Source: Acidimicrobiia bacterium
Lineage (GTDB): Bacteria; Actinomycetota; Acidimicrobiia; IMCC26256; PALSA-555
Reading direction: 5' to 3'
Length of the DNA stretch: 34,581 bases
Assembly (NCBI GenBank): GCA_035948415.1
Contig: DASZJD010000056.1
Coordinates: forward strand, 1 to 34,581
This document shows, piece by piece, positions 4,378-25,865 of this stretch. The notes beneath the pieces are model-generated. The model was not told the origin of the DNA. It saw only the letters and a program-made list of their open reading frames with translations, and searched no databases. How positions within the stretch are numbered: the stretch's first letter is position 1; each line of letters starts with the position of its first letter. A program made the position numbers and the translations under genes.

Positions 4378-5172
4378 GTGCGTCCCCGATTCTCGTTTCG
4401 TGTAGTGGCGACAGGGGTCGCGGCCGTAACAGTGGGCGTATTCGCTGGCTCGGCGTCAGCGACCACGCCCGCAGGTCACGTCGAGGCCAGCAAGCCAACC
4501 GGTTCGATCACCGTGTCCGCGGCCTCGTCGCTGACCGAGGCGTTCACGCAGCTCGGTCGCCAGTTTCAGAAGCAGTACAAGGGCACGACCGTGACATTCA
4601 ACTTCGGGTCCTCGTCAACTCTGGAGACCCAGATTCAACAGGGCGCCCCGGCGGACGTGTTCGCCTCCGCGGACACCGCGAACATGGTCAAGCTGTCCAC
4701 AGCCGGTGACGTGTCAGGCAAGCCGGTCATCTTCGCCCGCAACCTGCTCGAGCTCGCGGTGGCCAAAGGCAACCCGAAGAAGATCAAAACCCTGGCCGAC
4801 ACTCTCAAGCCGGGACTGCAGCTGGTGCTGTGCGCGGCGACAGTGCCGTGCGGCAAGTTCGCGTTGCAGGCTTACCAGCAGGCCGGACTGACGGTGCCGA
4901 AGGTCCCAACGGGCCAAGACGTGAAGGCCACCCTGTCAAACGTGACCCTCGGCTCCGCCGACGCGGCGATCGTCTACGTCACCGACGTGAAGGCAGCCAA
5001 AGGCAAGGTCGTGGGTGTCGTCATCCCACCGGCCCAGAACGTCGTGGCGACCTATCCGCTCGCGGTGGTCAAGTCGTCCGCCAACGCGGCGACTGCTCAA
5101 GCGTTCGTGCAGTACGTCGCGTCCCCGGCCGGGAAGGCCACGCTGTTGAAGTTCGGGTTCCTGAAGCCGTGA
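4378..5172 (+). CDS. modA: Molybdate ABC transporter substrate-binding protein
   Basis: A 264-residue exported binding protein. GTG 4378 has a good ribosome site (CCAGGAGG). Residues 1-28 form a Sec signal peptide ending in SASA without a lipobox Cys, so it is probably released or held by its partners. Diagnostic ModA blocks follow: ITVSAASSLTEAF (oxyanion-binding Ser), TFNFGSSSTLETQIQQGAP, then ADVFASAD and a C-terminal YPLAVVKSS. A Cys pair (LVLCAATVPCGKF) may form a disulphide. It delivers molybdate or tungstate to ModB. The stop overlaps the modB start (GTGA), which shows translational coupling. Confidence 0.93.
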   Translation: MRPRFSFRVVATGVAAVTVGVFAGSASATTPAGHVEASKPTGSITVSAASSLTEAFTQLGRQFQKQYKGTTVTFNFGSSSTLETQIQQGAPADVFASADTANMVKLSTAGDVSGKPVIFARNLLELAVAKGNPKKIKTLADTLKPGLQLVLCAATVPCGKFALQAYQQAGLTVPKVPTGQDVKATLSNVTLGSADAAIVYVTDVKAAKGKVVGVVIPPAQNVVATYPLAVVKSSANAATAQAFVQYVASPAGKATLLKFGFLKP

Positions 5173-5981
5173 CCCGGCGTCCGGGCGGTCGACGAAGGCT
5201 CCGGGCTCGTCGACCGCCTGCCGCCGCTTGCGCACTCGCGGCCCTCGCCGTTGGTTTCTTGGTCCTCCCGGTGGTGGGGCTGGTACAGCGGGCCCCGTGG
5301 TCGCAGATGTGGACCGACCTCACCGACCCGGCGACCAAAGACGCATTGCGCCTCTCCCTCGAATGCTCGCTGGCAGCCACCGCGCTGTCCGCGCTCTTTG
5401 GGATCCCGCTCGCCTGGGTCTTGGCCCGGACGGAGTTCCCCGGGCGGCACCTCACCCGGGCGCTCGTTCTCCTGCCGATGGTGCTGCCCCCAGTGGTGGG
5501 AGGGATCGCCCTGTTCTTTGCTATCGGCCCTCGGGGCTTGCTCGGCCAGTACCTCGACGACTGGTTCGGAGTCCGCCTCCCCTTTACGACGCTCGGGACG
5601 ATCGTCGCCGAGACTTTCGTGGCCATGCCCTTCCTCATCATTACGGTGGAAGCGGCACTGCGCGGCATCGACCGTCGTTACGAAGACGCGGCGAGCACCC
5701 TCGGGGCCGGCCGCTGGACGGTGTTTCGCCGTGTCACCCTGCCGCTCATCGCGCCGTCACTGCTCGCCGGTGCCGCACTCAGCTGGGCCCGAGCCCTGGG
5801 CGAATTCGGCGCCACCATCACCTTCGCCGGCAACCTCCAAGGCAAGACCCAGACCATGCCGCTGGCCATCTTCATCGCCTTTGAGCACGACCCCGCGACC
5901 GCAGTCGCCCTGAGCCTCGTGCTCGTGGCGATCTCGATCGCCGTGCTGGTCGCGCTGCGCGACCGCTGGTTCTTCGCGTGA
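5169..5981 (+). CDS. modB: Molybdate ABC transporter permease
   Basis: A 270-residue membrane protein with five to six hydrophobic segments. The GTG at 5169 overlaps the modA stop by four bases; upstream sequence in the frame is a shadow of modA. The first 17 residues are highly basic, then a first transmembrane segment (ALAALAVGFLVLPVVGLV). The ModB block LPMVLPPVVGGIALFFAIG and the cytoplasmic coupling loop EDAASTLGAGRWTVFRRVTLP (EAA motif, contacts the ATPase) are clear, as is GEFGATITFAGN. It forms the channel for molybdate with ModC. Confidence 0.93.
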   Translation: MTRRPGGRRRLRARRPPAAACALAALAVGFLVLPVVGLVQRAPWSQMWTDLTDPATKDALRLSLECSLAATALSALFGIPLAWVLARTEFPGRHLTRALVLLPMVLPPVVGGIALFFAIGPRGLLGQYLDDWFGVRLPFTTLGTIVAETFVAMPFLIITVEAALRGIDRRYEDAASTLGAGRWTVFRRVTLPLIAPSLLAGAALSWARALGEFGATITFAGNLQGKTQTMPLAIFIAFEHDPATAVALSLVLVAISIAVLVALRDRWFFA

Positions 5982-7036
5982 GCCTCGACGCTGACCTCGA
6001 TCTCCAGCTCGGCACGCTCAACCTCTCGGTCACCGTCGACGCCCAACCCGGCGAGACCGTCGTTCTCCTGGGCCCGAACGGGGCCGGGAAGACCACCTTG
6101 CTCGGCGCGCTCGCCGGGCTCCTCGCCATCGACCGCGGCAACATCACCCTCGACGGCAAGAGCCTCGACGACCCCGCACACAAGATCTGGGTGCCGCCGG
6201 AGCGCCGGCCGATCGGCGTTGTCTTCCAAGACAACCTGCTTTTCCCACACCTGAGCGCCCTCGAAAACGTCGCTTTCGGCCTTCGCGGCCACGGTGCACG
6301 ACGAAGCGAAGCCCGCCGCGAAGCCCGCACGTGGCTCGAGCGCATGGGTCTGGCCGGACACGTCAACGCCCGACCCCGCCAACTCTCTGGCGGACAAGCC
6401 CAACGGGTCGCGTTGGCACGCGCGCTCGTCCGGTCACCCCGACTACTGCTCCTCGACGAACCTCTCGCCGCGCTCGACGCCACCACCCGCCTCGACATCC
6501 GCCGCGACCTACGAGGCCACCTGGACACGTTCGCGGGTCCACGCATACTCGTCACCCACGACCCCATCGACGCGATGATCCTCGCCGACCGTGTCATCGT
6601 GCTCGAACACGGCGAGACCACCCAAGCTGGCACGCTCCCCGAGCTCCGAGCCCATCCCCGCAGCGAATACGCCGCCAACCTCATCGGTGTCAACCTGTAC
6701 CGCGGCACCCTCAACGGCGACCGCATCACCATCGACACAGGGAAAACCCTCGCCGTGGTCAACGACCACAACATCACTGGGGAAGTCTTCGCCACCATCC
6801 GACCCGAAAGCGTCGCCCTCCACCCCGAACAACCCACCGGCAGCCCCCGCAACACCTGGGTGGCAACCGTGGCGACCATCGACCAGTACGGACCACGCGC
6901 CCGAGTCGTCCTCAATGGCCCGATCAGCATCACCGCCGAGATCACCCAAGAGGCTCTCGTCGACCTCGCCATCAAACCTGACGCCCGCCTATGGGTGAGC
7001 GCGAAGGCCACCGAGATCGAGATCGATCCCTTCTAG
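5978..7036 (+). CDS. modC: Molybdate ABC transporter ATPase with TOBE domain
   Basis: A 352-residue ATPase whose GTG start overlaps the modB stop (GTGA). Walker A is GPNGAGKTT (residues 32-40), the Q-loop is VVFQDN, the signature is LSGGQ (136-140), Walker B is LLLLDE (156-161) and the switch His is H194 in VTHD. From about residue 285 there is a C-terminal TOBE/Mop module (RNTWVATVATIDQYGPRARV ... VSAKATEIEIDPF), which in ModC senses internal molybdate and shuts the pump. Family length is normal. It completes the modABC operon; third TOBE copy of the locus. Confidence 0.93.
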   Translation: MSLDADLDLQLGTLNLSVTVDAQPGETVVLLGPNGAGKTTLLGALAGLLAIDRGNITLDGKSLDDPAHKIWVPPERRPIGVVFQDNLLFPHLSALENVAFGLRGHGARRSEARREARTWLERMGLAGHVNARPRQLSGGQAQRVALARALVRSPRLLLLDEPLAALDATTRLDIRRDLRGHLDTFAGPRILVTHDPIDAMILADRVIVLEHGETTQAGTLPELRAHPRSEYAANLIGVNLYRGTLNGDRITIDTGKTLAVVNDHNITGEVFATIRPESVALHPEQPTGSPRNTWVATVATIDQYGPRARVVLNGPISITAEITQEALVDLAIKPDARLWVSAKATEIEIDPF

Positions 7037-13584: not shown

Positions 13585-13914
13585 GTGAGCGCGGGTGAAT
13601 TGGTCCGCAGCGTCCGCCGGCGGCGAGGCCTCACGCAGGCCGAACTCGCCCGCCGTGCCGGCACGTCGCAACCGGTCGTATCGGCCTACGAGCGGGGCCG
13701 GCGCGACCCGACCCTGGGGACGCTCCAGCGCCTGGTTGAGGCTGGCGGCGAGCGTCTGCGGGTCGGCGCCGAAGTCGTGGCCGACGGGCCGGCGCCCGCC
13801 GGCAGCGTCGACGAGCACGCGCGGCGCCTCGTCGACGTCCTGCTGCTGGCCGAGGCGATCCCGGCCCGGCCGCGGCCGCGTGTGCTGCGGGCGCCGCGAC
13901 TCCTCTCGTCGTGA
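13585..13914 (+). CDS. XRE-family HTH protein, probable antitoxin
   Basis: A 109-residue protein. Residues 4-60 are a Cro/C1 helix-turn-helix (LVRSVRRRRGLTQAELARRAGTSQ; PVVSAYERGRRDPTLGTLQRLVEA). The C-terminal part contains a helix (SVDEHARRLVDVLLLAEAIP) and a basic Pro/Arg tail. Its stop overlaps the GTG of the nucleotidyltransferase gene (GTGA), a coupling usual for toxin-antitoxin pairs with the antitoxin first. It probably represses its own promoter and neutralises the downstream enzyme; this is inferred from the layout. Confidence 0.85.
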   Translation: MSAGELVRSVRRRRGLTQAELARRAGTSQPVVSAYERGRRDPTLGTLQRLVEAGGERLRVGAEVVADGPAPAGSVDEHARRLVDVLLLAEAIPARPRPRVLRAPRLLSS

Positions 13915-14459
13915 CGATGCCGACGTTGCCGGAGCGCGTGGTCGCGCTCGAGGGTGCGCTGTCGGAGATCCCGCACGCCTTCGGGGGCGCGCTAGCCCTG
14001 GCCTACTACGCCGAACCGCGGGCAACGATCGACATCGATCTCAACGTGTTCGTGCCCGCTGACCATTACGCGGATGTGGCCGCGCCGCTCATCGAGCTCG
14101 GGGTCGCCGCCGACGCGCCGGAGGCGCGAGCAGCCGTCGCACTCGACGGCCAGGCGCGCGTCATGTGGGACGGGACGCCCATCGACCTCTTCTTCGCGTA
14201 TGACGCCTTCCACGATGCCGCCGCCGTGGCGCGCCGCACGGTTCCCTTCGCCGACTCGACCATCACGATCCTGGCGCCTGAGCATCTCATCGTGTGCAAG
14301 GCGGTGTTCAACCGGCCGAAGGACTGGGTCGACATCGATGCGATGCTCGACGCCGACGTCGCGCTCGACGCGGCCGAGGTGCTGCGGTGGGTCGGCCGCA
14401 TCGCCGGCGACACCGACCCACGCTACGAACGGATCGTCGCGGTCTTGACGCGGCGTTGA
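13911..14459 (+). CDS. Nucleotidyltransferase, AbiEii/MNT-like putative toxin
   Basis: A 182-residue nucleotidyltransferase-fold protein. FGGALALAYYAEPRATIDIDLN holds the GG motif (Gly25-Gly26) and the metal-binding DxD (Asp41, Asp43). PIDLFFAYDAFHD supplies the third acidic residue, and APEHLIVCKAVFNRPKDWVDI is the family's C-terminal lysine/aspartate block. Enzymes of this group next to HTH partners act as toxins that modify tRNA or proteins with nucleotides. It overlaps the XRE gene by four bases. An ATG at 13917 is an alternative start. Fold is firm, toxin role inferred. Confidence 0.82.
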   Translation: MTMPTLPERVVALEGALSEIPHAFGGALALAYYAEPRATIDIDLNVFVPADHYADVAAPLIELGVAADAPEARAAVALDGQARVMWDGTPIDLFFAYDAFHDAAAVARRTVPFADSTITILAPEHLIVCKAVFNRPKDWVDIDAMLDADVALDAAEVLRWVGRIAGDTDPRYERIVAVLTRR

Positions 14460-16315: not shown

Positions 16316-16738
16316 TCAGGTCTCAGCGGGCGTCTCGACCATGACCATCCACGGCGTGCCGAAGCGGTCGGTGCACATGCCGAACGCCGGCGAGAAGAAG
16401 GTCTCGCCCAGGGGCATCTGGACCTGTCCGTCCGTGGCCAGCGCGTCGAAGATCCGCTTGGCGTCGGCGGCGTCGGGCACCGAACAGTTGACGCACATGC
16501 CGTTGACGTGACCATCGAAGTTCCCGAACGGGTCGTCGGCGCCCATCAGGAGTGCCTCGTCGGAGGTCAACGCCGCGTGCATGATCGAGTCGGGCTTGGC
16601 GCCGGCCGGGGGAGGCCCGGCGTCGGCGGGGACATCGGCCATGGTGAGCAGCATGAGCTCGCCGCCGAAGATCGCCTGGTAGCGGGTGAAGGCTTCGCGG
16701 CAGTTGCCGGCGAAGGCGAGGTACGGGCGAAAGGCCAT
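16316..16738 (-). CDS. PhnB-like VOC-family protein
   Basis: A 140-residue single-domain VOC protein of the PhnB/YfdG-type (annotated in many genomes as 3-demethylubiquinone methyltransferase-like, although it is not one). It opens with FRPYLAFAGNCREAFTRYQAIFGGEL, has IMHAALTSDEALLMGADDPFG in the middle and ends with FGMCTDRFGTPWMVMVETP. Family members of this type are cytosolic dimers of unknown reaction. AGGAGA upstream of the ATG at 16738 supports the start. It lies tail-to-tail with the VOC remnant at 16000-16215, but the two are different subfamilies. Confidence 0.88.
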   Translation of the reverse strand: MAFRPYLAFAGNCREAFTRYQAIFGGELMLLTMADVPADAGPPPAGAKPDSIMHAALTSDEALLMGADDPFGNFDGHVNGMCVNCSVPDAADAKRIFDALATDGQVQMPLGETFFSPAFGMCTDRFGTPWMVMVETPAET

Positions 16739-17081
16739 CGGTCGTCTCCTGGGGGTGCTGTCGGTCCGGGCGATCGGTTTGACTCCGCGAGGAGCGGGAA
16801 CTCATCGGTGGACCCCGCACGAATGGGTCTCGGAGCTCGAAGCGGAGTTCGGTAGCACAACGTACGGCAGCGGACCGGCGCCATGGCTGCGCAGGCGCTC
16901 GCCTCGTGATCGCGGCGGAGAGCAGCCGCTCCACCCGCGTCTGCGGCCGTTGTCACCCCGTGGATCTGGATGAGAACCGCGGCCGCTGTGACCGGCCAAG
17001 AAGCGAGCCGCCGGCTCCGAGTGCGACCAGGGCCCACCCGATCTCCAGTCTCGCCGGGCGATGGCGTGGTCGTGGCACGGG
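16739..17081. other. Intergenic stretch, no gene seen
   Basis: All frames are open for long runs because of high GC, but none gives a recognisable protein. A short leftward hydrophobic run (GWALVALGAGGSLLG) near 17010-17045 might be the tail of a lost membrane protein; there is too little to call. Confidence 0.4.
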
Positions 17082-18047
17082 TCACGGTGCTCGGAGTGCC
17101 GGCAGGAGCTCGGTTGCGGCCCAGGTGATGAACTGCTCTTGGGTGTCGCCGCCGACTTGTACCAGCGCGACGTGGGTGAACCCGGCGGCCTCGAACTCGC
17201 GAACGCCGGCGGCGTGATGCGCGGCCTCGGGACCGCACGGCATCTGGTGCGCCACGTCGTCCTCGCGCACGGTCCGGCTCGCCTGGTCGAACGACGCCGG
17301 GACCGGGAGCTCGGCGTTGACTCGCCACCCGCCGGTGAACCAGCGGAACTGATCCATGGCTCGCAGCAGCGCGGCGTGACGGTCGGGATCGTAGGACAGT
17401 GCGATCTGGCCGATGCGGGGCTTGCCGGAGCCACCGGCGGCGTCGAACAGCCGGCCGAGATCGGCGCGCGGCTCGACGGCGATCATGGCGTCGCCGTGGC
17501 GCCCTGCGAGGCGACAGCTGGCCGGCCCGGACACCGCGATTCCGATCGGCGGCGCGACCTCCGGCAGGTCCCAGACCTTCGCCGATTCGACGTCGAAGTG
17601 CTTGCCCCGATACGTGACCGTCTCGCCCGCCCAGAGGGCCCGGATGATCTCCACCGCCTCGGTCAGCATCTCGTGGCGTACACCCGCGATCGGCCAGCGT
17701 CCGCCCACGATGTGCTCGTTCAGGTTCTCTCCGGCGCCGAGCCCGAGGGTGAACCGCCCGTCGGACAGCAGCTGCATGGTGGCGGCCTTCTGCGCCACGA
17801 CGGCAGGGTGATAGCGACGGATCGGGCAGGTGACGTAGGTCATCAACGGGATGTGGTCGGTCGCCTGGGCCGCCGCGCCGAGCACGCACCACGCGTACGG
17901 GGAATGGCCCTGCGAGTCGAGCCACGGGAAGTAATGGTCGCTGATGACCGCGAAGTCGAAGCCGGCTTGCTCGGCGAGGACAGCGTCGCGCACGAGCTGC
18001 TTGGGGCCCGCTTGCTCGCACATCATCGTGTAGCCGACCAACGTCAT
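17082..18047 (-). CDS. F420-dependent luciferase-like oxidoreductase (G6PDH-type)
   Basis: A 321-residue TIM-barrel flavin/F420 enzyme. It matches the F420-dependent glucose-6-phosphate-dehydrogenase-like branch: VGYTMMCEQAGPKQL, FDFAVISDHYFPWLD, SQGHSPYAWCVLGAAAQATD, TCPIRRYHPAVVAQKAATM and SDGRFTLGLGAGENLNEHIVG. The His of SDHYFPW and the ENLNEH region are conserved in that group. True substrate may differ from glucose-6-phosphate. The ATG at 18047 has CGGAGGTGGG upstream and overlaps the stop of the dehydrogenase gene before it (ATGA), so the two are co-translated. It faces away from the GntR/ABC transporter genes and may share their pathway. Confidence 0.9.
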   Translation of the reverse strand: MTLVGYTMMCEQAGPKQLVRDAVLAEQAGFDFAVISDHYFPWLDSQGHSPYAWCVLGAAAQATDHIPLMTYVTCPIRRYHPAVVAQKAATMQLLSDGRFTLGLGAGENLNEHIVGGRWPIAGVRHEMLTEAVEIIRALWAGETVTYRGKHFDVESAKVWDLPEVAPPIGIAVSGPASCRLAGRHGDAMIAVEPRADLGRLFDAAGGSGKPRIGQIALSYDPDRHAALLRAMDQFRWFTGGWRVNAELPVPASFDQASRTVREDDVAHQMPCGPEAAHHAAGVREFEAAGFTHVALVQVGGDTQEQFITWAATELLPALRAP

Positions 18048-18931
18048 GACCCACCTCCGTCGTGCTCCAGCGCCCGGATGACGACGGTCAGATCGAGGTC
18101 TCCGAGTCCCTGATCGACGGCCTGTTGCCACTCGTCGGCCAGGCAGGCAAGGGCCGCGGACCGGCTCTCGCCCGCCGCGTCAAGCGCGAGGCGGACGTCC
18201 TTGAGAGCCAGTGACAGCGCGAACTCGGCCGAGAACTCGCCGGTGGCGATCCGGCGCAGCTTCGCCGCCTGCCAGGGCGAGACGAGCGGCCCCGGCCCGA
18301 GGGCGTCGATCACGGTGTCCGTCGCGAGACCCAGCCGGTGAGCCAAGGCCACGGCCATGGCGAGCGCCTCGTTCCCGAACGCGAGCCAGGTGTTGTTGAC
18401 GACCTTCAGGCGGGATCCAGCGCCCGCTGGTCCGACCCAGATGGTTCGCTGCCCGAGCGCGTCGAAGAGCGGAGCGACACGCGGGCGGACCTTCTCGGGC
18501 CCCGACGCGAAGATCGTGAGCGCACCCTGCTCGGCCGGCTCCTTGCTTCCCGATACCGGCGCGTCGACCAGCGTCACGTCCTGACTCTCTGCCTCCACGA
18601 CCGCCGTGACACGCTCGATGCCCGCCACTCCGATCGTGCTCATCTGCGCCCAGATCGAACCCGGGGCGAGCGCCGCGAGCATCCCCTGATCCCGAGCGAT
18701 CGAGACGACGGCATCGGCGTCGGTGACCATCGTGACGACGATCGCGGCGCGGCGGGCGGCATCGGCGGCGCTCTCGGCGACGACCGCACCTGCTTGAGCC
18801 AGGTCACGGGTGACCTCGGGCCGGCGGTTCCACACGACCGTCGGGATCCCCGCGCGCAGCGCGCTGACGGCCATCCCGTGGCCCATCGCGCCGATGCCCA
18901 GCACCGCCACCGGCTCCTGCCTCGCTGCCAT
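18044..18931 (-). CDS. Beta-hydroxyacid dehydrogenase family (HIBADH-like)
   Basis: A 295-residue NAD(P)-dependent enzyme of the 3-hydroxyisobutyrate/6-phosphogluconate type. The N-terminal Rossmann motif is AVLGIGAMGHGMAVSALRAG, the substrate-binding block is LVDAPVSGSKEPAEQGALTI and the catalytic Lys lies in GAGSRLKVVNN. The all-alpha C-terminal domain follows. ATG 18931 is preferred over 18949, since GAGGAGG then sits 4-5 bases upstream. It oxidises a beta-hydroxy acid or reduces a semialdehyde; substrate unknown. Located opposite to the GntR gene, it is the first gene of the leftward pair. Confidence 0.88.
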   Translation of the reverse strand: MAARQEPVAVLGIGAMGHGMAVSALRAGIPTVVWNRRPEVTRDLAQAGAVVAESAADAARRAAIVVTMVTDADAVVSIARDQGMLAALAPGSIWAQMSTIGVAGIERVTAVVEAESQDVTLVDAPVSGSKEPAEQGALTIFASGPEKVRPRVAPLFDALGQRTIWVGPAGAGSRLKVVNNTWLAFGNEALAMAVALAHRLGLATDTVIDALGPGPLVSPWQAAKLRRIATGEFSAEFALSLALKDVRLALDAAGESRSAALACLADEWQQAVDQGLGDLDLTVVIRALEHDGGGS

Positions 18932-19158
18932 CGGCCCCTCCTCGGGCATCCGCCCCCGCGGCGGCGGGCCACCAGCGTCGCGCCGAGAACCCGACCGAGG
19001 AGAGTCCGCTCGCTCCGGGGGAGCCGCCAGAAATCCCGGTTGGAGACGGCGCGTCCTCGTCAGGCCGTGGCCGCTGCGGTGTCACCGGTCCGAGGCCGAG
19101 TTCCGAACGCGGCCGCTCGTGGCGAAGGCGGCGACGCTGCCCGCACCGTCGAGCCCGC

Positions 19159-19197
19159 TTGACAGCGTCGGGCATCTGATATTTGCTATAGCAAATA
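19159..19197 (+). promoter_or_regulatory. GntR promoter with 18-bp perfect palindrome
   Basis: TTGACA (19159-19164) is a consensus -35. From 15 bases on, TATTTGCTATAGCAAATA (19180-19197) is perfectly symmetric over 18 bp and covers every possible -10 position (TTTGCT at 17-bp spacing, TATAGC at 22 bp). The AT-rich island stands out in GC-rich DNA. It lies 33 bp before the GntR-family start, so autoregulation is likely. It is also between the leftward pair and the rightward operon, so it may control both. Confidence 0.8.
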
Positions 19198-19229
19198 GCG
19201 CCTGTGCACCTCGGGACGGAGTCGGAGAG

Positions 19230-19949
19230 ATGAGCGGCAGCCCAGAGCGGAAGCTGAGCACCGGGGCGTCGTTGGCCGATCAGGCGTACGCCGCGCTGCG
19301 GGCCGACATCACCGGCGGTCGCTTCGCTCCCGGGGAGCGGGTCACGGAGCGGGCCTTGGCGTCGCAGCTCGGGATCAGCCCGACCCCGGTCCGCGAGGCG
19401 ATCGCTCGGCTCGAGCACGAGCGGCTCTTCGAGCGCGACGGTCGGGTGCTGAGCGTGGCCGCCCCCTCGATCACCCGGCTCCGCCAGCTGGTGCGGATCC
19501 AGGCCGTGCTGCGAGGGCTGTCGGCGCGCTTTGCCGCCGTGCACGGGTCGGAGACCGAGCTGGCCGAGATCGCGCGCGCCCACGACCAGGCACGACAGGT
19601 GCGGCGAGCCGACCGGGCCGTCGAAGACGTCGCCAGCGAGCTGTTGGCCCGGACCCGGGAGTTCCACGCCAAGATCGACGAGGCGTCGCACAACCCGATG
19701 TTGGTCGACATGATCGCGACGGCGACGGCGTTCGACTGGGCCTTTCGGCTCGAGGCGGCCAGCACCCTCGGTCCGCTCTACCCGGTCCGAGAGGCCTTGC
19801 GTGAGCACAGCGACATCGTGGTGGCGCTGCGGGCTCGCGACGGGGAGCGCGCCGAGCAGCTGATGGTCGCCCACACGCTGAGATCCGGCGAGGAGATGCT
19901 CTCCTTCGCCGGTGTCGGTCACGAGGCAGAGCCGGCGGCTCGTGCCTAG
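19230..19949 (+). CDS. GntR-family regulator, FCD type
   Basis: A 239-residue regulator. The winged helix is at residues 10-78 (SLADQAYAALRADITGGRFA; RVTERALASQLGISPTPVREAI; ARLEHERLFERDGRVLSV). The all-helical FCD ligand domain has REFHAKIDEASHNPMLVDMIATA and REHSDIVVALRARD, with the Asp/His residues that bind a metal and an organic acid ligand in this family. ATG 19230 with GGAGAG upstream is chosen. FCD regulators usually answer carboxylate intermediates of the pathway they control. Its operator is probably the palindrome at 19180. Confidence 0.92.
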   Translation: MSGSPERKLSTGASLADQAYAALRADITGGRFAPGERVTERALASQLGISPTPVREAIARLEHERLFERDGRVLSVAAPSITRLRQLVRIQAVLRGLSARFAAVHGSETELAEIARAHDQARQVRRADRAVEDVASELLARTREFHAKIDEASHNPMLVDMIATATAFDWAFRLEAASTLGPLYPVREALREHSDIVVALRARDGERAEQLMVAHTLRSGEEMLSFAGVGHEAEPAARA

Positions 19950-20134: not shown

Positions 20135-21271
20135 ATGGTGATCAGGAGCGCCCACCGGGCGACGCGTCGACGCGGCGCGACGCTGGCATTCACGCTGGCG
20201 CTGGCGATCGTGGCCTCGACGCTGGCCCTGGTCTCGACCGCCGGCGCGTCAGCTCGAGGCGACCAGCCACCGGTGCCGCTCGCCACCCTCGTGGCCCGCT
20301 CCCACAAGGAGGGTGGGCTGACCATCTACGGCAACCCGCCGGCGCCCTACTTCAACCCCGTGCTCAGCGCCTTCCAGCGGCAGTACCCGTGGATCAAGGT
20401 CCAGTACTCGGACCTCGGAGACAACCAGGTCTTCTCGAAGTACGAATCCGAGCACGGCCAGGGGGCGGCGAGCGCCGACATCCTCATCGCGAGCGCGCCC
20501 GCGCTCTGGGTTCAGGCGGCTCAGAACGGCGTGATCCAAGCGGTGACGCCGCTCGGGCTCGCCCGCTTCCCGTCGTTCACGAAGCAGGGCCCGGGCCTCT
20601 TTGTCATGTCACCGGAGCCGATCCTGTCGGCGTACAGCGAGAAGCTCCTGCAGCCGTCGCAGGTCCCGCAGACCTACGCCCAGCTCGTGCAGGACGTGAA
20701 GGCGAACCCGAGCACCTACAAGCTGGTGTCGTACCCCATCACCAACCCGCTCGCCTACGGGGCCACCTACGGGCTGATCCACATCCTCGGAGCGAAGACG
20801 GTCTGGCGGGACCTCTCGGTGCTGGGGCCGAACACGAAGACCTTCGACGCCGGCCTCGACGGCCTCCAGTACCTGCTGCAAGGCGGCGCCTCGGTCGGGT
20901 ACATCTCGTCCGGGCTGGCCCAAGGAGTCCTCAAGAGCTTCCAGGGCTTGGCCAACGACGTCTTCATGCAGGACGCGACCCCCCTCGTCCCGCGCGGCAT
21001 CGCGGTCACGCGGGGCTCGCAGAGCCCGGCGTCGGCGCAGCTGTTCGTGGACTTCGTGCTCTCGGACGCCGGACAGCAGGCGCTCTGCGCCGCCGGCTTC
21101 GAGGCGTCGCAGAACGGCTTCACCCCGACGAACGGCTGCACCGCCAGCCTGACCCAGCTGTACAAGACCGTGCCGGCCAGCCACGTGTATCTCGTGCCCT
21201 TCTCGACGGACGTGCTCCGTCAGCAGCCGGCCATCACCGCCCGCTGGAACCGAGCCTTTGGCCGGGGCTGA
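20135..21271 (+). CDS. ABC transporter substrate-binding protein (Fe3+/polyamine type)
   Basis: A 378-residue exported binding protein. GGGGGAG precedes ATG 20135. A long basic Sec signal peptide runs to about residue 40 (ALAIVASTLALVSTAGASA). The mature part starts like group 1 iron/polyamine/phosphonate-type binding proteins: KEGGLTIYGNPPAPYFNPVLSAFQ, then ADILIASAPALWVQAAQNGV, and later SPASAQLFVDFVLSDAGQQAL. Two Cys near the end may form a disulphide. The ligand is unknown; the Tyr-clamp for Fe3+ is not evident, and the neighbouring catabolic genes favour an organic solute. The stop overlaps the permease ATG (TGATG). Confidence 0.88.
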   Translation: MVIRSAHRATRRRGATLAFTLALAIVASTLALVSTAGASARGDQPPVPLATLVARSHKEGGLTIYGNPPAPYFNPVLSAFQRQYPWIKVQYSDLGDNQVFSKYESEHGQGAASADILIASAPALWVQAAQNGVIQAVTPLGLARFPSFTKQGPGLFVMSPEPILSAYSEKLLQPSQVPQTYAQLVQDVKANPSTYKLVSYPITNPLAYGATYGLIHILGAKTVWRDLSVLGPNTKTFDAGLDGLQYLLQGGASVGYISSGLAQGVLKSFQGLANDVFMQDATPLVPRGIAVTRGSQSPASAQLFVDFVLSDAGQQALCAAGFEASQNGFTPTNGCTASLTQLYKTVPASHVYLVPFSTDVLRQQPAITARWNRAFGRG

Positions 21272-23031
21272 TGGCCCGAGGGGGCGCTCGCACCAGCCTG
21301 GTGACGACCGCGCCCGCTCCGGCGCGGCCGGTCCCGGGGATCCGGCGGCGCCGGATCCCCGCCAGCCCGGGCCAGGCGCTGGTCTGGGGACTCGCCGTGC
21401 TCGTCATCCTGGGCCCGCTCGTCCCGCTCGTCTACACGTCGTTTCGGAGCAAGCCGTACTACCTGCCGGGCGGCACGTGGACACTCGGCGCCTACCGGAC
21501 GCTCTTCGCCGATCCCGAGTTCTGGCGGGCGGTCCAGAACACGGTCGTCTTCGCGGCGGTGGCCACCGTGCTGGCGGTGGCGCTCGGCGCGGGCTTCGCG
21601 ATCCTGGTCAGCCGCACGAACATGCCGGGGCGCCGGTGGCTGGGCTGGGCGCTCCTCGTCCCGATCGTCACGCCCCCGCTGGCGCTGATCGTCGGCTGGT
21701 CGTCGATCTACGGGGAGGGCGGCTACCTCACCCAGCTCTTCGGCCGGAAGCTGGGACTGCCGACGTGGAACCTCTCGTCGCTCGGCGGCATGGCCGTGCT
21801 CGGCGCGGTGGTCGCGCTCCCGGTGGCGTTCCTCACCTGCCGGGCGGCCCTCGCCGGCTCCGACGGGTCGCTCGAGCGGGCGGCGCTCAGCGCCGGCGCG
21901 TCGCCGGTGATCGCCCTGCGTCGCGTCACGCTGCCGCTCCTCCGACCCGCGATCCTGAACTCGGCCATCCTGATCTTCGCGCTGCTGCTGGAGACCCTCG
22001 GCATCCCGCTCTTCCTCGGGACGCCGGCAAACATCAACTTCTACGCCAGCTACCTCTACAAGGGCTGGGTGAACGGAGCCACCCCCGACCCGCCGTACGT
22101 GAGCGCCGGCGCGGTGCTCCTGCTCGCCGCCGTCACGATCCTGCTGCTGCTCCGCACCAAGCTGCTCGGGTCCGAGCAGCGCTTCATCGTGACGAGCAGC
22201 CGCCGGTCCAGCGACACGCCGCTGGACCTCGGGCGGTGGCGCTTCGGCGGGACCGCGATCACCGGCGCGTTCGTGCTGCTGGCGAGCGTCATCCCCCTGG
22301 CGGGCCTGGCGCTGATGTCGAGCGTCAAGGAGCTCACCATCCTGGTGCCGCCCTGGCACCTGTGGACCGACGCCAACTGGCACGCCGTCCTCACCGAGGT
22401 GAGCCTGCGACGCTCCATCCAGAACAGCCTGCTCATCGCGGCGGTCGGCGGCGTCCTCACCGTGGTCTTCGTCGCGGTGGCGACCCTCGTCGCCCATCGG
22501 TCGCGCTTCGCCCTCCGACGGACGATGCCGTCGCTGTTGGTCTATCCGCGCGCCATCCCCGGCATTATCCTGGGCGTCGGGTTCTTCTGGGCGTTCCTCA
22601 TCGTCAACGTCCCGGGCGCGTTCCTCCGCAACAGCATCTGGGGCGAGCTGCTGGCCCTCTGCATCCGCAACCTCACCGTGGCCTACGTCGTCCTCTACCC
22701 GAGCCTGGTCAGGATGAACCCCGAGCTTGAGCTGGCGGCCACCGCTTCCGGTGCCGGCTGGTGGACCACCGCTCGGCGGATCGTGCTTCCCGTCCTGCGG
22801 CCCGCGCTCCTGGCGGCGCTGGCGCTCATGTTCATCACCCTGCTCAACGACTACGACCCCGTGGTGTTCTTGCAGAAGACCGGGACCGAGATCCTGGGCG
22901 TCACCATGCTGCACTCCTGGGAGAAGGGCCTTCCCGGTCAGGTGGCCAGCCTCGCCCTCATCCAGGTCGTGATCGTCGGCGCCGTGCTCGCCGGTGCGGG
23001 GCGCGCGTTTCGGAGAGCGACCGTTGCCTGA
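21271..23031 (+). CDS. Fused double ABC permease
   Basis: A 586-residue membrane protein with two permease modules in one chain, the FbpB-like arrangement. Module one (about residues 25-300) carries [22 protein letters not shown] as its EAA loop; module two (about 320-585) carries [22 protein letters not shown]. About twelve hydrophobic segments are visible. ATG 21271 overlaps the preceding stop by one base; the long upstream frame is a shadow. With the binding protein and the ATPase it forms a complete importer, and needs no second permease gene. Confidence 0.92.
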
Positions 23032-24097
23032 GATCTGCCTGCAGGACGTCGTCGCCAGCCACGGAGAGAAGCGGGTCTTGGACGGCGTCAGCCTCCGGGT
23101 CCGAGACAAGGAGTTCGTGACGATCCTCGGACCCAGCGGCTGCGGCAAGACCACGACGCTCATGGTGATGGCCGGCTTCCACCACCCCCAGAGTGGGCGG
23201 ATCACCTGTGGTGATGACGTGTTCTTCGACGGCGGTGCGCACCGGACGCTGGCCGCGGAGCGGCGCAACCTCGGGATCGTCTTCCAGTCGTACGCGCTCT
23301 GGCCGCACCTGACCGTCGCCGGGAACGTCGGCTTCCCGCTCCAGCTCCGTCGCACGAGCAAGCCGGCCCGAGCCGCACGCGTGCAGGAGGTGCTCGACCT
23401 GGTCGAGCTCGGCGACCACGCCGATCGGTACCCGCACCAGCTCTCCGGTGGGCAGCAGCAGCGGGTGGCCCTGGCTCGAGCCCTGTCCTTCTCCCCGTCG
23501 GTGCTCCTCCTCGACGAGCCGTTCTCCAATCTCGACGCCAAGCTCCGCGAACGGGCCCGGGAGTGGCTGAAGGCCCTGCAACGGGAGATCGGAATCACGA
23601 CGGTGTTCGTCACCCACGACCAGCACGAGGCCCTCTCGATGAGCGACCGGGTCATGGTCATGGATGCCGGCCGGATCCTGCAGAGCGGAGCCCCCGAGGA
23701 CATCTACGCGAGGCCCAACTGTCGCTTCGTGGCGGACTTCGTCGGCCAGTGCAACTTCCTCCCCGCCACGGTCGTCGGTGTCACCGATCGTGGATCACTC
23801 ACGGTTGCCATCCCCGGGGTACCCGAGCCGTTCCCGATCACGACCGACCGTCACGCGCGCAGGGGCGAGCAGCTCACCCTCGCCCTCCGACCGGAGCGAA
23901 TTCTGCTCGCACCTCCCTCCGGGACCGAGGCCGTGCCCACCGACGCCACCATCGCCGACGAGTCGTTTCTCGGCGACCACTACCGCTACCGGCTCGTCAT
24001 CGCGGGCACCGAGGTGCTCGCACAGTCCTCCCACCGGGTCGTCGAGCCCACGGTGCGGGCGTGGATCCATCCGCGGGACCTCCGGGTCGTGGACTGA
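23024..24097 (+). CDS. ABC transporter ATPase with TOBE domain
   Basis: A 357-residue ATPase of the PotA/FbpC type. Walker A is GPSGCGKTTT (residues 36-45), the Q-loop is VFQSYALWPHLTV, the signature is LSGGQQQRVALARAL, Walker B is LLLDEPFSNLD and the switch His is in VTHDQHEA. A C-terminal TOBE_2 domain (QLTLALRPERILLAPP) follows. The start is a TTG at 23024, with GGAGAG six bases upstream, overlapping the permease stop by 8 bases; GTG 22994 is less likely. It energises the importer. Confidence 0.92.
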   Translation: MPEICLQDVVASHGEKRVLDGVSLRVRDKEFVTILGPSGCGKTTTLMVMAGFHHPQSGRITCGDDVFFDGGAHRTLAAERRNLGIVFQSYALWPHLTVAGNVGFPLQLRRTSKPARAARVQEVLDLVELGDHADRYPHQLSGGQQQRVALARALSFSPSVLLLDEPFSNLDAKLRERAREWLKALQREIGITTVFVTHDQHEALSMSDRVMVMDAGRILQSGAPEDIYARPNCRFVADFVGQCNFLPATVVGVTDRGSLTVAIPGVPEPFPITTDRHARRGEQLTLALRPERILLAPPSGTEAVPTDATIADESFLGDHYRYRLVIAGTEVLAQSSHRVVEPTVRAWIHPRDLRVVD

Positions 24098-24145: not shown

Positions 24146-25555
24146 GTGGAGGAGATCCGATTCGTCGCCGCGCACGGAGCGCTCGGTGCCGGCATCGACG
24201 CGGCGTCCCTCGACGAGGCGCTGCAGCTCGAGCCGAGCTTCATCGCGTGCGATGCCGGCACGACCGACGCCGGCCCCTACTACCTCGGATCCGGTCAGTC
24301 GGCGTTCCCAGCCGAAGCGGTCCGCAGCGATCTGGCGATCATGATCGACGCCGCCCAGCGTCTCCGCATCCCCGCCATTGTCGGCTCCGTCGGCACCGCC
24401 GGGACCGACGGTCACGTCGACGCCGCCGTGGCCATCGTGGCCGACATCGCCGCCGAACGGGGTCAACCGCTGCGGATCGCCGCGATCTACACCGAGCAGC
24501 AGCCCGAGTACCTCACCCGAATGCTCGACGAAGGCCGCATCGCGCCCCTCGATCCCGCGCCGCCGATCACGGCCGACACCTTCACCGGCAGCGAGCACGT
24601 CGTCGCGATGATCGGCGTCGAGCCGCTCCAAGCCGCCCTCGCCGAGCGGCCGGACGTCGTGGTCGCCGGGCGGTGCAGCGACGCCGCCCTCTTCGCCGCC
24701 ATGCCGATCGCCGAGGGCTTCCCCCCGGGGCTCGCCTGGCACACGGGCAAGATCGTCGAATGCGGCCCCATGGCGATGGTGCGACCCAGGCCCGGCGTGC
24801 TCCTCGCCAGCGTCGGCCACGACAGCGCCACCATCCGGGCGATCGGTCCCAGGGCCCGCCTGACCCCGCTCAGCGTGGCCGCCCACAGCCTGTACGAGAA
24901 CGCCGACCCGTTCCTGTTCCCGGAGAGCTCGGGCACCTTCGACCTCACCGACTCGACCTATGAGGCGGTGGACGACCAGGTGGTGCGAATCGCCGGCACC
25001 CGGTTCCGCCCCGCCCCCCACCTGTCGCTCAAGCTCGAAGGCGCCCAGCTCGTCGGCTACGCCAGCCTCATCGTCGGCGGCATCCGCGACCCGTTCATCC
25101 TCCGTCGACTCGACCCGTGGCTCGACGGCGTCCGCGACCACATCCAGCACCTCGTCGACGCCTTCCTCGGCGATCGGATCTCACGCGCGCAGTACGAGCT
25201 GGTGATCCACCAGTACGGGCGGAACGCCGTCATGGGACGCCTCGAACCGGCACCGCACCTCGTCCCCCACGAGGTCGGCATCGTGCTCGAGGTCCTCGCC
25301 CCGACCCAGGAGCTCGCCAGCGTCATCGCACAGATCAGCCGGCAGCCGCTCCTGCATCACCCCATCCCCGAGTGGACCGGTGGGGTCACGACCTTCGCCT
25401 GCCTGCACAACCCGGCCCACATCGATCGCGGCCCCGTCTACCAGTTCAACCTCCACCACACCCTCATTCCCGAGAGGATCGGCGACGCCTATCGCCTCGA
25501 GACGACCGAAGTCGGCGGAAGCAATCGGAGGGTGAGCTATGCCGACGCTCGCTGA
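24146..25555 (+). CDS. AtuA-family (DUF1446) protein
   Basis: A 469-residue protein of the acyclic terpene utilisation AtuA/DUF1446 family. Characteristic pieces are FIACDAGTTDAGPYYLGSG, PAIVGSVGTAGTDGHVDAAV, VVVAGRCSDAALFAAMPIAEGFP, HTGKIVECGPMAM and DLTDSTYEAVDDQVVRIAG. AtuA lies in the Pseudomonas citronellol/geraniol pathway, but the family's reaction is not known to me and many members lie in other catabolic loci. GTG 24146 has GAGAG upstream. It overlaps the DUF4387 gene by 17 bases and follows the importer by 48 bp, so it likely acts on the imported compound or a CoA derivative of it. Confidence 0.88.
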   Translation: MEEIRFVAAHGALGAGIDAASLDEALQLEPSFIACDAGTTDAGPYYLGSGQSAFPAEAVRSDLAIMIDAAQRLRIPAIVGSVGTAGTDGHVDAAVAIVADIAAERGQPLRIAAIYTEQQPEYLTRMLDEGRIAPLDPAPPITADTFTGSEHVVAMIGVEPLQAALAERPDVVVAGRCSDAALFAAMPIAEGFPPGLAWHTGKIVECGPMAMVRPRPGVLLASVGHDSATIRAIGPRARLTPLSVAAHSLYENADPFLFPESSGTFDLTDSTYEAVDDQVVRIAGTRFRPAPHLSLKLEGAQLVGYASLIVGGIRDPFILRRLDPWLDGVRDHIQHLVDAFLGDRISRAQYELVIHQYGRNAVMGRLEPAPHLVPHEVGIVLEVLAPTQELASVIAQISRQPLLHHPIPEWTGGVTTFACLHNPAHIDRGPVYQFNLHHTLIPERIGDAYRLETTEVGGSNRRVSYADAR

Positions 25556-25865
25556 TCTCGCCTCCCTCATCCGCAGCAAGAACGCCGGACCCTTCGAGCT
25601 CACCTTCGACGTCATGTTCGACGACGACGCGTCGTACGAAGCGGTCGCGCGTGCCGGGATCCTGAGCACCACCTTCTTCTCGAGCACCTACCGCTGCGCG
25701 CCACGACACGTCCGCATCTTCCACTATCCGACCGCCCGCGCCATCAAGGTGACGATCCCCCGCCCGAGCATCCAGGGCACCTTTGGCGATCCGGACCTCC
25801 ACGGGTGCCAACAACACGCTCCGCTCCTCGATCTCCAGCTCGAGGAACCAGACCCGCTCCAGTAA
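25539..25865 (+). CDS. DUF4387-family protein
   Basis: A 108-residue protein starting MPTLADLASLIRSKNAGPFE, then LTFDVMFDDDASYEAVARAG and a C-terminal RIFHYPTARAIKVTIPRP with GTFGDPDLHGCQQHAPLL. This is the DUF4387 pattern, a family that is regularly encoded next to, or fused with, AtuA-like proteins, so the two probably form one enzyme complex. The acidic DDD and conserved His/Cys near the end (DLHGCQQHAPLL) are candidates for a working site. The overlap with the AtuA gene supports translational coupling. The end is normal for the family. Confidence 0.88.
   Translation: MPTLADLASLIRSKNAGPFELTFDVMFDDDASYEAVARAGILSTTFFSSTYRCAPRHVRIFHYPTARAIKVTIPRPSIQGTFGDPDLHGCQQHAPLLDLQLEEPDPLQ

Follow-up and report, generated by a model that had tools for sequence, protein, structure and literature searches.

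The window analysed here, 34,581 nucleotides long, is the entire contig DASZJD010000056.1 (C56) of an Acidimicrobiia genome of 3.4 Mb in 133 contigs. A divergent gap of 280 bp (18950-19229) separates two gene groups in this window, and a perfect 18-bp palindrome, TATTTGCTATAGCAAATA, lies inside it at 19180-19197. The palindrome has no strand of its own, and we predict from its conservation across a whole clade of regulators that it is the operator of the adjoining regulator gene. Its conserved core, TGCTATAGCA, occupies 19184-19193 and is likewise without strand, while a TTGACA hexamer is found on the plus strand at 19159-19164. An earlier note on this DNA had described the palindrome, the hexamer and their location between two divergent gene groups, and all three were reproduced exactly. 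It had also placed the palindrome 33 bp before a GntR/FCD gene; the gene does adjoin it, and the measured spacing from the palindrome end to the ATG at 19230 is 32 bp. The centre of the palindrome is 41 bp from the start of this regulator gene and 239 bp from the start of the divergent dehydrogenase gene.

The regulator gene (19230-19949, plus strand) was assigned by domain matches. Its product consists of an N-terminal GntR winged helix-turn-helix (PF00392, 64.1 bits with a cut-off of 27) and a C-terminal FCD domain (PF07729, 54.1 bits with a cut-off of 24.3). When compared with the PDB sequences, it matched 6z74, which we take to be Atu1419, with an E value of 3.4e-21, and McbR was among its solved relatives. 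McbR is a member of the VanR group of FCD regulators according to the available part of PMC7797058. The C-terminal domain of this group has six helices rather than seven. In the FCD domain, H193 is kept in all 14 aligned members of the regulator clade defined below and H146 and H215 in most of them, and the place of the Asp/Asn metal ligand is taken by T142 in the window regulator. By analogy with Atu1419, as far as it is described in the available text of PMC7797058, H146, H193 and H215 may act as metal ligands.

Behind the regulator, all on the plus strand and all named from family matches, are the genes for an ABC transporter solute-binding protein (SBP, 20135-21271), a two-domain ABC transporter permease whose start codon is uncertain (21268-23031), an ABC transporter ATPase (22994-24097), an AtuA-family protein (PF07287, 24146-25555) and a DUF4387 protein (PF14330, 25539-25865). 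The divergent group on the minus strand contains, again by family match, a 3-hydroxyisobutyrate-dehydrogenase-like gene (18044-18949) and an F420-dependent LLM-class oxidoreductase with an uncertain start (17082-18131). The oxidoreductase frame overlaps an ORF at 16567-18054 on the same strand, for which no family match was found, and it is likely that the oxidoreductase frame is the real gene. For the substrate of the transporter, phosphonate uptake was considered and rejected since the top NCBIfam scores, which were PhnR, PhnU2 and PhnT2, were all under the curated cut-offs; the regulator, for example, scored 54.1 bits for PhnR (TIGR03338), with a cut-off of 271.5. Also, the annotated neighbouring genes in the window showed no phosphonate enzyme. 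Some other genes of the window may be mentioned here. A second pair of ABC permease and ATPase of a similar kind is located at 4830-7036; a single frame at 515-1684 joins a GMC oxidoreductase C-terminal domain to an HhH-GPD glycosylase and is perhaps merged or mis-started; and the region 13911-14459 gave a weak match to the AbiEii nucleotidyl transferase (PF08843, E 2.6e-5).

The length of the palindrome by itself proves little, because 0.44 perfect palindromes of at least 18 bp are expected in the window from its base composition. For an A/T-rich perfect palindrome, with at least 7 A-T pairs of 9, the expected number is 4.5e-5. There are only two 18-mers with at least 14 A/T in the window, and they overlap each other with starts at 19179 and 19180, that is, the palindrome and the same stretch shifted by one base to the left. 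The earlier judgement that a palindrome of this composition is very unlikely by chance agrees with these figures. The palindrome had further been thought to cover the -10 region of a TTGACA promoter, which our analysis does not support: a sigma-70 scan that asked for a -35 and a -10 hexamer 16-18 bp apart found 0 promoters, and the best second hexamers behind TTGACA matched at just 3 of 6 places. The hexamer is listed as a possible -35 with no good -10 found. The genome search that had been proposed for defining a regulon was run as well, and it returned a site that is unique in this genome. No second copy of the 18-mer exists in the 3.4 Mb when as many as 3 mismatches are allowed. The decamer TGCTATNGCA occurs at 1 place, and its reversed-pattern control at 2 places forward and none in reverse. 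The 14-mer, again with 3 mismatches allowed, occurs at 2 places, and its control at 2 forward and 2 in reverse. A wider regulon in the host genome was rejected, as these counts do not exceed those of the controls and the 18-mer is unique. Within the window, no second operator was found in the 185-bp gap ahead of the SBP gene.

Related loci were collected from 395 genomes of the class by a profile search for the regulator and by a separate pattern search with TTTGCTATAGCAAA allowing one mismatch. The nearest regulator homolog, with 55% identity, is in the Actinomycetes bacterium isolate RYN_51 (JAODBJ010000318.1, or G051:C309), where AATTTGCTATTGCATG lies over the regulator start codon. An AtuA gene stands directly behind this regulator and shares 39% identity with its counterpart in the window. 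In genome G430, the sole pattern match lies over the SBP start behind the third-best regulator homolog, which came from the independent protein search, and the promoter of this regulator carries a second site, TGCTATGGCA, between TTGACA and TATCTT, 17 bp apart. The pattern matches of low-GC relatives (e.g. G021, G032 and family f93) were treated as background, and in the extracted pattern loci, which are part of all the matches, tblastn found no GntR relative except in G000 and G430. A phylum search with the single protein at E 1e-35 matched the window alone and understated the clade that was later found by profiles. With a three-row profile, 23 of 396 genomes in the phylum had a match, and in family f49, which is probably Streptomycetaceae in view of the closeness of genes on a Streptomyces chartreusis plasmid, there were 9 of 205. 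Profile A2 was built when the G430 site was already known; the further members were selected on protein similarity. Since the first round of the large searches scored 7 or 13 candidates per genome, absence outside these candidates is unproven.

The comparison set, to which two plasmid records belong, consists of 14 clade regulators and 30 more distant GntR proteins, and a branch with support 98/95 separates the 14 from the rest of the tree. When a site was defined as at most 1 mismatch from TGCTATAGCA, within -300 to +40 of the regulator, all 14 clade members had one and none of the 30 others did. This supports the earlier idea of the palindrome as an operator site for the adjoining GntR/FCD regulator. 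Several of the loci belong to a single family (f49) and have a common ancestry, so the 14 should not be counted as 14 independent events. In the same promoter region, a GTATAC-type palindrome was present for 13 of the 30 outgroup proteins (9 of them with TGTATACA) and for none of the 14. Over the full length of the 14 clade loci (242,938 bp) we counted 34 sites compared to 0.45 expected from first-order Markov resampling, while 28 distant loci (98,242 bp) contained 0 compared to 0.5 expected. Two other sequences were observed in these loci: a different near-palindrome, GGTATATCATATTGG, upstream of the distant regulators L031 and L032, and another perfect 18-bp palindrome, TAGACAGGTACCTGTCTA, at L019:9104-9121.

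For 31 of the 34 sites, the start of a regulator, SBP, MFS or AtuA gene coincides with the site or follows within 450 bp; the nearest gene is the SBP for 12, the regulator for 11, AtuA for 6 and an MFS transporter for 2. The other three, one of them before a permease match and two (L101:3726 and L109:6634) without a listed gene start, count against the operator reading, and so does the single site of the window, since most other clade loci have at least two. The missing site ahead of the window SBP gene and the missing clear -10 also speak against it. AtuA and DUF4387 accompany the regulator in 13 of the 14 clade loci. AtuA (PF07287) is followed directly by DUF4387 (PF14330) in the window (24146-25865), L019, L098-L100 and L102-L109, and neither was found within 18 kb at L101. 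The gene order in S. chartreusis is GntR, MFS transporter, AtuA and DUF4387. In several relatives TTGACA is 3-5 bp ahead of the site, which puts the site within the promoter spacer there; the window departs from this geometry and has no evident -10.

From sequence comparison, we regard it as very likely that the palindrome serves as operator for the adjoining VanR-like FCD/GntR regulator, which would thereby control its own gene and the co-oriented genes. Some other explanations have to be weighed. The regulator may bind the site as an activator, or on behalf of both divergent groups, instead of by simple autorepression. We consider this unlikely. In its favour, a mycobacterial VanR-like GntR protein, Ms0535, activates its own operon according to the available text of PMC4609117, and the sites of L099, L108 and L109 are in divergent gaps. 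On the other hand, the site lies between TTGACA and the start in G430 and several other loci, a position suiting repression; the divergent dehydrogenase is without a match among the other 13 loci in a search with the HIBADH query; and its start in the window is far from the site centre (239 bp) compared with that of the regulator (41 bp).

Divergent gaps can also be bound by regulators other than the local one, and the tie between our regulator and the site comes from comparing sequences, so the palindrome might belong to another, unlinked regulator that acts here by chance. We find this quite improbable because the site tracks the clade (14 of 14 loci, compared with 0 of 30 near the other GntR homologs) and is unique in the host genome. 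That the palindrome arose by chance, or that it forms an RNA hairpin or a terminator, has a negligible probability. The 0.44 palindromes expected from composition would allow for chance, but the 4.5e-5 for an A/T-rich one does not, and the clade-wide conservation already refutes it; chance origin was rejected on both grounds. An RNA element or terminator was rejected too, because the palindrome has no loop and no Rfam match, and the one terminator-like site nearby, on the minus strand with its tail running into the palindrome, has a weak stem of 5 pairs.

For the favoured reading of the palindrome as a self-regulating operator, the following mechanism can be proposed. A regulator dimer would sit on the palindrome with one winged-helix domain on each TTTGCTA half-site, and this dimer, between or over the promoter elements, would block transcription of the regulator gene and of the genes behind it. 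The co-oriented ABC transporter, AtuA and DUF4387 genes would be controlled through read-through. A small metabolite, probably an organic acid, that is taken up or made by products of the cluster genes would then release the regulator: uptake or turnover of the substrate would supply the ligand to the FCD domain and free the DNA.

GntR is a very large bacterial family, and its operators are usually predicted through the GT...AC rule together with an Arg-G contact. For the FadR subfamily, the available portion of PMC4494728 gives TKGT...ACMA as the common operator form and ties the FadR Arg35 place (position 28) to the TKGT/ACMA letters, where Arg prefers G; NanR and BioR are other exceptions to this form that it names. 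In Atu1419 of Agrobacterium fabrum, which belongs to the VanR group of FCD/GntR regulators and has the operator ATGTATACAT, Arg45 contacts the guanine at -3 and a G-to-A change abolishes binding, and its authors describe the contact as a typical feature of the GntR family (available part of PMC7797058). Our clade departs from both. Its pattern TTTGCTATAGCAAA has no GT/AC pair and is not of the canonical GT-N-AC (TKGT...ACMA) form, and the window regulator has Pro51 in place of the canonical Arg45 of the recognition helix, a place that was set by spacing (E40-P51-T52-R55 aligned with E34-R45-T46-R49). Of the 14 clade members, 9 have Pro and 5 have Ala at this place; of the 30 others, 21 have Arg, 2 have Lys, 1 has His and 2 have Pro, and the remaining 4 were not read by the script. 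All 14 clade regulators retain R41, which corresponds to Arg35 of FadR. Among the letters of the site, G(-4) and C(-3) stay the same in all 68 half-sites of the 34 clade sites; 24 of the 34 vary at other core places and none at -4 or -3, within a definition of at most 1 mismatch from TGCTATAGCA that limits the variation seen. The two outgroup proteins with Pro (L031 and L032) have the same SPTPVRE motif and no site. Therefore, having Pro at place 45 is not enough to determine the specificity, and other residues count.

From this we suggest that R41 probably reads G(-4) and that the loss of Arg45 seems to accompany C in place of G at -3. The fuller proposal, that an FCD clade has lost the Arg45-guanine contact, reads G(-4), probably through R41, and C(-3), recognizes TTTGCTATAGCAAA rather than TTGTATACAA, and governs an uncharacterised transporter-AtuA-DUF4387 pathway, is put forward tentatively and with somewhat less than even confidence.

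These features can be set against known systems, as far as they are covered by the available parts of the cited papers. Like Atu1419, a repressor, the window has an FCD/GntR regulator, its own and adjacent genes as probable targets and a short even palindrome in the promoter; unlike Atu1419, where Arg45 reads G3 in TGTATACA, it has Pro51, the base C and TGCTATAGCA (PMC7797058). It resembles the FadR-subfamily operators in having an A/T-rich palindrome beside a FadR-subfamily regulator gene, and its centre spacing resembles their 2-nt class if C replaces G, but it is without their GT/AC pair (PMC4494728). AlkR of Pseudomonas aeruginosa, with the operator ATTGTCAGACAAT, is also a VanR-type FCD regulator with a palindrome near a start codon; its core is an odd-centred GTC/GAC, unlike here, and its R45 mutants bind DNA much less (PMC12042122). 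The PhnR/PhnSTU systems for 2-aminoethylphosphonate (NCBIfam) share with the window a GntR regulator beside a broadly similar ABC transporter; the window differs in its scores below the curated cut-offs and in having AtuA and DUF4387, with no phosphonate enzyme seen in the annotated genes nearby. A literature search found no paper that pairs GntR with GCTATAGC; RegPrecise and most subscription journals, where the motif may stand, were outside its scope. Variants and longer forms of TGCTATAGCA gave no paper on a GntR regulator, by title, among the matches listed. Searches for DUF4387 and AtuA terms gave none with DUF4387 among the matches listed, no described role for the AtuA-DUF4387 pair and no paper joining any two of DUF4387, AtuA and DUF1446.

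A self-regulating GntR operator is ordinary as such, and it is the departure from the family letter code common to the whole clade, together with the tie to AtuA-DUF4387, that we regard as moderately interesting. Such a clade, in which fold and palindrome persist and the key base is swapped alongside the loss of Arg, would offer a clear-cut natural example for the recognition code and, if true, a natural and testable switch of that code. The site may also serve as a sequence tag for the AtuA-DUF4387 pathway with its transporter.
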